Source of the DNA: Bradyrhizobium lupini
GTDB lineage: Bacteria; Pseudomonadota; Alphaproteobacteria; Rhizobiales; Xanthobacteraceae
Direction: 5' to 3'
DNA length: 64,000 bases
NCBI RefSeq assembly: GCF_040939785.1
Contig: NZ_CP162553.1
Coordinates: forward strand, 4,464,001-4,528,000
Below the pieces are notes generated by a model. The model made no database searches, was not told the DNA's origin, and saw only the letters and a list, made by a program, of their open reading frames with translations. Every line of letters starts with the position of its first letter. The stretch's first letter is position 1. Below, piece after piece: positions 60,914 to 63,165 of the stretch. The translations under genes and the position numbers were made by a program.

Positions 60914-61126
60914 GTCTGACGGGTGCTGCTGAGAGGCGTTCCAATGCGGATCAGTCGAGCCGTCACCGCTGTGATGGATATCCTGATTAGGCAGTCGGGG
61001 CTGCGAAAGCAAAGAGAAATGCAAAGAGAAATCGGGCCCTTTCCGCCCGTGGCGCGACAGGCGAATTTGGCTGATCCGGGCCGTGACTTGACGAAAACCG
61101 TCCAAGACGGTAGTTTTTACCCGTTC

Positions 61127-61186
61127 CGTGGTCATTTGAGCCGGCCGGCTTGCAGCCACGTTAAAAAACTCGCTAAACAGGCCGGG
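61127..61186 (+). promoter_or_regulatory. SAM-II riboswitch aptamer upstream of metX
   Basis: The sequence matches the SAM-II (metA motif) consensus: stem P1 CGTGG (61127-61131) with CCACG (61156-61160), the conserved GTTAAAAAA region, and GCTAAA at 61172-61177. Pseudoknot stem P2 pairs CCGGCC (61141-61146) with GGCCGG (61180-61185). S-adenosylmethionine should stabilise P2. The aptamer lies about 100 bases upstream of metX and is followed by a terminator (61199). Confidence 0.9.
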
Positions 61187-61198
61187 GACGCTTTCGAT

Positions 61199-61231
61199 CC
61201 CGGCCGAACCTATCGTTCAGGCCGGGTTTTT
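61199..61231 (+). terminator. attenuator terminator between SAM-II aptamer and metX
   Basis: CCCGGCC (61199-61205) pairs with GGCCGGG (61220-61226), extended by GAA with TTC, and is followed by TTTTT. The same CCCGGCC can pair with the aptamer's GGCCGGG (61180-61186), giving a mutually exclusive antiterminator. SAM binding would free CCCGGCC for the terminator. Confidence 0.85.
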
Positions 61232-61287
61232 CATGGCCTGATGTCAATGCGGTCACTTCTACGATCGCAAACGAGGTCGATGGTCAG

Positions 61288-62490
61288 ATGGTTGGCGTCC
61301 AGTCCATTCCGAGTCCCGCGATCACCGCCGACGAGCGGTCGCACGAGGTGGATCATCCGAGTTCGCACGTCGCGCAGTTCGGCTCGGAGCAGCCGCTGCG
61401 GCTCGACTGCGGGGTCGATCTCAGCCCGTTCCAGATCGCCTACCAGACCTACGGCGAGCTGAATGCCGATCGCTCCAACGCGATCCTGATCTGCCATGCG
61501 CTGACCGGCGACCAGCACGTCGCCAACGTGCACCCTGTCACCGGCAAGCCCGGCTGGTGGGAGACCTTGGTCGGCCCCGGCCGGCCGCTCGATCCCAACG
61601 AATATTTTATCATCTGCTCCAACGTGATCGGCGGCTGCATGGGCTCGACCGGCCCGGCCTCGATCAATCCCGCGACCGGCAAGGTTTGGGGGCTCGATTT
61701 CCCCGTCATCACCATCCCCGACATGGTGCGCGCGCAGGCGATGCTGATCGACCGGCTCGGCATCGACACGCTGTTCGCGGTCGTCGGCGGCTCGATGGGC
61801 GGCATGCAAGTGCTGCAATGGACTGCGGCGTATCCGAGTCGCGTGTTCTCCGCGCTGGCGATTGCCTGCTCGACACGACACTCGGCGCAGAACATCGCGT
61901 TCCACGAGCTTGGCCGTCAGGCGGTGATGGCCGACCCCGACTGGCACCATGGCGGCTATGCCGATCGAGGCATCCATCCGCATCGTGGCCTCGCTGTCGC
62001 CCGGATGGCGGCGCACATCACCTATCTCTCCGACGCCGCGCTGCATCGAAAATTCGGGCGGCGCATGCAGGACCGCGAGCTGCCGACTTTCTCTTTCGAC
62101 GCCGACTTCCAGGTTGAGTCCTATCTGCGCTACCAGGGCTCGTCCTTCGTCGAGCGCTTCGACGCCAACTCCTATCTCTATCTGACCCGCGCGATGGACT
62201 ATTTCGACATCGCCGCCGACCACGGCGGTGTGCTGGCGAAGGCGTTCGCGGGAATCCAGACCCGCTTCTGCGTGGTCTCCTTCACCAGCGACTGGCTGTT
62301 CCCGACCTCGGAATCGCGCGCGCTGGTGCACGCGCTGAATGCGTCGAGCGCGCGGGTGTCGTTCGCCGAAATCGAGACCGATCGCGGTCACGACGCCTTC
62401 CTGCTCGACGTGCCCGAATTCCTTGATATCTCCCGCGCCTTCCTGCAATCGGCAGGCAAGGCGCGCGGGCTCACCGCCAATAATGCTTAA
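61288..62490 (+). CDS. metX: homoserine O-acetyltransferase
   Basis: A 400-residue alpha/beta hydrolase-fold MetX. It has the [17 protein letters not shown] block, the Ser nucleophile in [14 protein letters not shown], Asp in TSDWLFP and His in [10 protein letters not shown]. It activates homoserine for methionine synthesis, using acetyl-CoA (possibly succinyl-CoA). Start ATG 61288 with GAGG upstream. It is controlled by the SAM-II element and is followed by metW after 12 bases. Confidence 0.95.
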
Positions 62491-62502: not shown

Positions 62503-63165
62503 ATGTCTGTACAGGAAGCGTTGCCGCTGGGCGGCCTTGCGACCGGGCAGCCCGGTGATTTTCGCGCGGACCATGTGCTGGTGGCCAACATGGTCAAGCC
62601 GGGCTCGAAGGTGCTCGACGTCGGCTGCGGCGAGGGCGACCTGCTCCAACTGCTGGAAACCCGCGGCGTCGACGGCCGCGGCATCGAGCTGTCGCGCGAG
62701 GGCGTCAACCGCTGCGTCGCCAAGGGTCTTGCGGTGGTGCAGGGCGATGCCGACACCGACCTCGTGAATTATCCGGATGACGCCTTCGACTACGTGATCC
62801 TGTCGCAGACGTTGCAGGCGACGCGGCAGCCGAAAGTGGTGCTGGAGAATTTGCTGCGCATCGGCCGCCGCGCCATCGTGTCGTTCCCGAATTTCGGCTT
62901 CTGGAAGATGCGGCTCCAGCTCCTGATCGGCGGCCACATGCCGCGCACGGAGAACCTGCCGGCAAGCTGGTATGACACCGCCAACATCCATTTCTGCACC
63001 ATCAAGGATTTCGTCGAGCTCTGCGACGCGATCGACGTCAAGATGGAACGTGCCGAGGCGCTCGACCTCTACGGCCGTCCGCTGCGGCTGCGGATGCCCT
63101 GGTGGGTGTGGAATCTGTTCGGCGAGCAGGGCGTGTTTCTGCTGACGCGGGGCGGCAGGACGTAG
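62503..63165 (+). CDS. metW: methionine biosynthesis protein MetW
   Basis: A 220-residue MetW, methyltransferase-like. The SAM-binding motif is VLDVGCGEGDLLQLLETRGVDGRGIELS, and the C-terminal region has WYDTANIHFCTIKDFVELC. It acts with MetX in homoserine acylation in many bacteria, though its exact mechanism is unsettled. It is cotranscribed with metX and therefore also under the SAM-II attenuator. Confidence 0.94.
   Translation: MSVQEALPLGGLATGQPGDFRADHVLVANMVKPGSKVLDVGCGEGDLLQLLETRGVDGRGIELSREGVNRCVAKGLAVVQGDADTDLVNYPDDAFDYVILSQTLQATRQPKVVLENLLRIGRRAIVSFPNFGFWKMRLQLLIGGHMPRTENLPASWYDTANIHFCTIKDFVELCDAIDVKMERAEALDLYGRPLRLRMPWWVWNLFGEQGVFLLTRGGRT

Follow-up and report, generated by a model that had tools for sequence, protein, structure and literature searches.

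A SAM-II riboswitch very probably controls the metX-metW genes of Bradyrhizobium lupini by transcription attenuation, through an exchange of RNA strands between the aptamer and a terminator. It was found in the window, i.e. the whole 64-kb stretch of DNA that was analysed. The aptamer, the helices as possible pairings, their conservation and the co-evolution of two strands, B and C (Table 1), across the class come from this analysis directly. The B-C helix has the features of an antiterminator: B is common to it and the aptamer, C is common to it and the terminator, and both strands are conserved and co-evolving.

Features of the metX leader

The aptamer scored 83.9 bits (gathering score, 36) and is the sole match at gathering level to any Rfam family in the window. 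Besides matching the SAM-II model, it has complementary strands for helix P1 and pseudoknot P2 and a methionine-pathway gene downstream, metX, which starts 90 nt from the aptamer. This copy is predicted to bind SAM.

Table 1. Features of the metX-metW locus (positions in the window)
Feature	Position	Strand	Evidence or remark
Probable promoter (TTGACG 61088-61093, 17 nt, TAGTTT 61111-61116)	61088-61116	+	Sequence
SAM-II (SAM_alpha, RF00521) aptamer	61118-61197	+	cmscan, 83.9 bits, E = 1.8e-17
P1 of aptamer	61127-61131 with 61156-61160	+	
Strand A, 5′ strand of pseudoknot P2, CCGGCC	61141-61146	+	Complementary to B
Strand B, 3′ strand of P2 and 5′ arm of antiterminator, GGCCGGGG	61180-61187	+	B-C co-evolution, pairing kept
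Strand C, 3′ arm of antiterminator and 5′ arm of terminator, CCCGGCC plus GAAC	61199-61209	+	Folding, alignment
Strand D, 3′ arm of terminator: GTTC, bulged A, GGCCGGG	61215-61226	+	C-D hairpin, −18.5 kcal/mol
U tract of terminator	61227-61231	+	Sequence; five T invariant in 40-row alignment
Strand E, GGCCTGA	61235-61241	+	Can pair with D (TCAGGCC, 61217-61223), U tract in hairpin loop; putative function
Putative Shine-Dalgarno sequence of metX, GAGG	61273-61276	+	Sequence; nearly 90 nt past P2
metX, homoserine O-acyltransferase	61288-62490	+	NF001209, 565 bits (cut-off 331)
metW	62503-63165	+	TIGR02081, 247 bits (cut-off 189.5)

The segments named in a preliminary description of this DNA lie exactly where it had placed them: GGCCGG at 61180-61185 (GGCCGGG if extended to 61186) is complementary to CCCGGCC at 61199-61205, and the latter can also pair with GGCCGGG at 61220-61226, which TTTTT (61227-61231) follows. 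Four inner pairs of the terminator had been omitted, those of GAAC (61206-61209) with GTTC (61215-61218), next to a bulged A (61219). The terminator is thus an 11-pair stem with a U5 tail, sited between the aptamer and metX. As isolated hairpins, the B-C antiterminator (−17.3 kcal/mol) and the C-D terminator (−18.5 kcal/mol) are nearly equal. The fold of the lone 121-nt leader is mildly unusual (z = −1.92), and a generic terminator scan did not report the window terminator, probably because of the limits of the scan on bulges and loops; the strength of the case therefore lies in comparison and not in the lone sequence.

The best NCBIfam model for metX is that of homoserine O-acetyltransferase MetX. 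The protein is under the cut-offs of TIGR01392 (488.5 versus 500) and of the succinyl model NF047916 (504.5 versus 560), and the acyl donor is not settled by the models. The divergent gene from 60913, whose best model is an uncharacterised family, has a chorismate-mutase-like N-terminal part (CM_P2, 60.8 bits, under the cut-off of 69.55).

The probable promoter was not called by a consensus scan (its TAGTTT hexamer matches at three of six positions), and TTGAC is present upstream of the aptamer in all 111 leaders of the family set described below. Transcription would start just upstream of the aptamer and its P1 helix. A perfect inverted repeat between the −35 and −10 elements (ACCGTC-CAA-GACGGT, 61097-61111) was considered as an operator and rejected, as it is unconserved in relatives. 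At the −35 position, 14 of 76 divergent SAM-II leaders (e.g. L104, L109, L146 and L179) carry TTGACGCCAAG, a sequence longer than a −35 box, which an unknown regulator of met promoters might perhaps bind. The leader in the window has TTGACGAAAAC at that place.

Conservation of pairing in close relatives

The metX query gave at least 593 relatives, and the best 80 were kept; an aptamer was present in 53 of these 80 loci within the DNA covered, some loci being short (the motif match in L044 was rejected as a spurious aptamer). We aligned 40 leaders, 36 of them distinct: that of the window and 39 of the 40 from L003-L053, L013 being omitted. Strand B is invariant in this alignment. Strand C occurs as TCCCGGCC (36 rows), TCCCGGTC (three rows) and TCCCGGCT (one row), each fully pairable with B. 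In three rows the last base of D is altered; C there retains CCC, and its outer C is pairable with B only.

Among the 36 distinct rows, the pairs of P1 and P2 are intact in all; P1, P2 and C-D taken together are paired in 99.6% of cells, and P1 together with B-C in 100%. The spacer between B and C takes 26 distinct forms over the 40 rows, with B-C pairing unbroken. Loss of complementarity between the segments in close relatives had been named in advance as an observation that would count against the switch; over the 40 leaders the pairing is kept. No pair is altered on both sides in these leaders, so the support they give is conservation against a drifting spacer, not covariation. Covariation of B and C is seen outside the family, as the next section shows.

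Co-evolution of strands B and C across the class

Of the genomes sampled, 90 of 121 in the order and 90 of 190 in the class match RF00521 at E ≤ 0.001; above the cut-off the counts are 89 and 78. The matches over the cut-off, minus a number of the weakest ones from the class, were taken; with metX loci added, 233 of 260 loci yielded a leader. A strict terminator is present within 110 nt of the aptamer in 199 of the 233. The other 34 have none by the criteria used; the mechanism is therefore not shared by all members of the SAM-II class. Strict terminators occur in 146 of the 180 leaders of the genome survey; the counts for the controls are 83 in 540 dinucleotide-shuffled sequences and 21 in 180 stretches from further downstream. 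After removal of ten leaders in which the terminator stem starts within B (<8 nt after GCTAAA), 189 were left, and these were reduced to 77 representatives at 65% identity.

In these representatives, the mean B-C energy is −12.09 kcal/mol with the leader's own strands and −10.28 kcal/mol (sd 0.27) with swapped strands (z = −6.6; none of 20,000 permutations was as good). The same test gave z = −6.8 for P2 (A-B), −22.6 for C-D and −0.8 for A-C, while two control segments gave −0.2 and −0.1. The B-C helix reaches −9 kcal/mol or better in 59 representatives, and own B pairs better than letter-shuffled B in 69. For a given B, own C ranks at a median of 0.32 of all C strands, so single leaders are weak evidence. 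Since the permutation ignores descent, we added a swap of C between 70 disjoint sister pairs matched outside B and C; own C was better in 45 cases and worse in 18 (sign test, P = 4.5e-4).

One position of B varies between C and U. Over 140 distinct leaders it is found in C-G (74), U-A (27) and U-G (21) pairs, unpaired (8) or unanchored (10). The unpaired cases have C in two leaders and U in six; the program gives standard pairs only, and a C-A pair would look unpaired. By these comparisons, B and C co-evolve across alphaproteobacteria about as strongly as the two strands of P2.

In the family, all 90 surveyed genomes contain RF00521 (86 over the cut-off). The family set includes 27 new loci and 40 more regions, taken from the higher-scoring matches, many lower-scoring ones being left out. 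A loose terminator pattern is present in 110 of its 111 leaders, the exception being L319; in one family member outside this set (L198) no terminator was found by the criteria used. Pairing of B with the interval from B to D is at −12 kcal/mol or better in all 110 terminator-bearing leaders. Own B has a mean of −18.1 kcal/mol versus −11.1 kcal/mol for letter-shuffled B (35% of shuffles reach −12 kcal/mol) and is better in 110 of 110.

The co-evolution of B and C bears on how the aptamer acts. The best studied mode of SAM-II is direct occlusion of the ribosome binding region, as in Sargasso metX and Sinorhizobium meliloti metA (PMC10907184, PMC9373788), and in S. meliloti metA a SAM-II with the Shine-Dalgarno sequence inside is accompanied by a terminator for which, according to the text of that work, the authors could predict no SAM-II-driven antiterminator. 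A similar action on translation in the window, with SAM-bound P2 hiding the Shine-Dalgarno sequence and a terminator outside SAM control, is improbable. There is no ATG close after the 3′ strand of P2; the metX start codon (ATG at 61288) is ∼100 nt past P2 and has a GAGG of its own, and class-wide co-evolution of B and C would be unexpected if the terminator were independent of P2.

We give slightly less credence to an antiterminator built from the 5′ strand of P2, i.e. A-C in place of B-C. The region of A also has a GGCCGG (61143-61148). In 15 of the 77 representatives, the Mesorhizobium type among them, A-C exceeds B-C in strength by >2.5 kcal/mol, and in the sister swap A-C tends in the same direction as B-C (37 versus 25; sign test, P = 0.08; Wilcoxon test, P = 0.011). 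In the swap test, however, A-C falls far short of B-C, and before D is made C in the window leader is predicted to be paired with B at a probability of 0.64 (per base, over the 11-nt arm) and with A at 0.00. As a general antiterminator A-C was rejected for want of class-wide specificity; it is possible for some lineages.

Predicted order of folding

For attenuation through B-C, we propose the following order of events on an RNA that begins just upstream of P1. With SAM scarce, B would take C once C is made, and C would be unavailable when D emerges; with B-C formed there would be no terminator, and RNA polymerase would continue into metX. Bound SAM would hold A and B in pseudoknot P2 and leave C free; C would then pair with D ahead of the U tract and transcription would end ∼110 nt after its start. 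The direction of the switch and its kinetic order are predictions; the folding models below are nested and have pseudoknots outside their scope.

In a leader growing from 61121, the base-pair probability of B-C is 0.98-0.99 at nt 61207-61222, while D is incomplete. Complete D shifts the SAM-free equilibrium to C-D (0.98 at 61228, 0.67 at 61231). Because this equilibrium favours the terminator at the U tract, the switch would have to act kinetically. With A and B kept from pairing, to imitate SAM-bound P2, C-D has a probability of 0.99-1.0. Before C is made, the SAM-free model has P1 open (0.00-0.06) and B paired, without a pseudoknot, with the loop region beside A; the minimum at nt 61228 combines this B-loop fold with the terminator, so the model would permit termination without SAM.

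Over the 77 representatives, before D is made C is mostly paired with B in 46, with A in 5 and with neither in 26. Locking A and B raises the mean equilibrium C-D probability from 0.64 to 0.89; C-D goes up by at least 0.2 in 28 representatives, changes by <0.2 in 48 and goes down in one.

The least probable reading is that the terminator is simply constitutive, or the leader a source of sRNA, and that the GGCC repeats stem from high G+C: GGCC is self-complementary, the z-score of the lone fold is modest and the SAM-free equilibrium prefers the terminator, but the shuffled, further-downstream and swap controls speak against chance repeats, and B-C is conserved while spacers drift.

Strand E downstream of the U tract

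Strand E lies outside the coordinates of the preliminary description. Among the 43 leaders in the cluster of the window, 42 have GGCC within 12 nt past the U tract (38 as GGCCTGA), and identity from the twelfth base onward lies at 0.33-0.64. For 54 distinct leaders with the GAAC type of terminator, the mean D-E energy is −13.02 kcal/mol versus −6.79 for shuffled E and −8.72 for the next 14 nt; own E is better than shuffled E in 52 leaders and better than the next stretch in 50, and loses to the next stretch in 3. As a class-wide feature D-E was rejected (−6.87 for own strands versus −6.76 permuted, with 6,548 of 20,000 permutations as good).

Strand E also fits CAGGCC of B. In L034, D and E are altered together with B unchanged, while in L290 and L296 D alone is altered; E there is still a perfect match for B, and its fit to D uses a G-U pair. 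Pairing of B with E in place of D-E was set aside on the evidence of L034, i.e. on one event. A minimal reading frame after the U tract (AUG-GCC-UGA) was rejected as well, since several relatives that keep GGCC lack its start or its stop.

With E kept from pairing, B-C in the window leader has a probability of 0.42 at nt 61243 instead of 0.76, and its mean over 43 leaders falls from 0.45 to 0.22 (B-C is higher with E in 25 leaders and lower in 4). In a longer RNA (to 61320), C-D is 0.94 with or without E. RNA polymerase reaches E only past the U tract, so E should have no influence on the decision to terminate. E may act as a latch on the read-through mRNA. It is rather unlikely, though possible, that the metX leader of this family works as a five-strand relay, and not as a three-strand switch, in which relay, past the terminator, E captures D, B-C plus D-E is favoured and the ON decision is latched. 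Such a latch would keep SAM from refolding the read-through mRNA at a later time.

Relation to known SAM-II riboswitches

The type of mechanism is already published for the SAM-II class, and the design is an ordinary one save for one extra hairpin arm. When the class was described (Corbino 2005, PMC1273637), SAM-II was already proposed to act as an OFF switch through putative terminators, and terminators after SAM-II also appear in Barrick and Breaker (2007, PMC2258182). The SAM-II of Corbino and the metX leader are alike in aptamer sequence, P1/P2 fold, methionine genes downstream, a start near P1 and a putative terminator between P2 and the gene; the alignment figure of that work includes Bradyrhizobium japonicum, according to its legend. 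Its text leaves the strand competing with the terminator unnamed, unlike B-C here.

The SAM_alpha regulon was extended to metXW in five Bradyrhizobiaceae genomes (Leyn 2014, PMC4239095), the same gene pair in the same family; as far as its text goes, that work is a regulon list without an expression-platform mechanism for SAM_alpha. For S. meliloti metZ, SAM-induced termination was predicted, and a ∼100-nt sRNA, RZ, is more abundant in rich medium, where SAM is high (Scheuer 2022, PMC9373788). A SAM-induced terminator is thus predicted in both systems; the S. meliloti switch sits before metZ, whereas that of the window sits before metX, and Mesorhizobium leaders show weaker B-C.

In the literature searched, figures, supplements and subscription papers aside, we found no description of the B-C antiterminator or the E arm; Figure S1 of PMC9373788 may show a similar metZ fold. 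The main text of a Bradyrhizobium start-site paper (PMC4842269) does not contain the whole words riboswitch, methionine or SAM. Added here are the comparative support for the antiterminator strand, the same design at metZ of this genome and arm E. The class-wide co-evolution of B and C identifies the competing strand and pinpoints the exact changes for a direct test.

Second copy and other loci

The genome has a second SAM-II (G000:C1:3253515-3253594; L001:1501-1580) with 87.9 bits. The gene after it is metZ, encoding O-succinylhomoserine sulfhydrylase (766 bits versus a cut-off of 675), and the metZ leader repeats the plan of B, C and D seen in the metX leader. High SAM is predicted to turn off metX-metW and metZ jointly in this genome.

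In Mesorhizobium metX leaders (L059-L081), the 5′ strand of P2 pairs with the 5′ arm of the terminator better than the 3′ strand does (−11.9 versus −8.3 kcal/mol in L059); these leaders may therefore build their antiterminator from the 5′ strand instead. Weak RF00521 matches under the cut-off were also seen close together in pairs (G304:C108:24184-24371 and G154:C10:267205-267440); these are perhaps tandem aptamers or related pseudoknot riboswitches.
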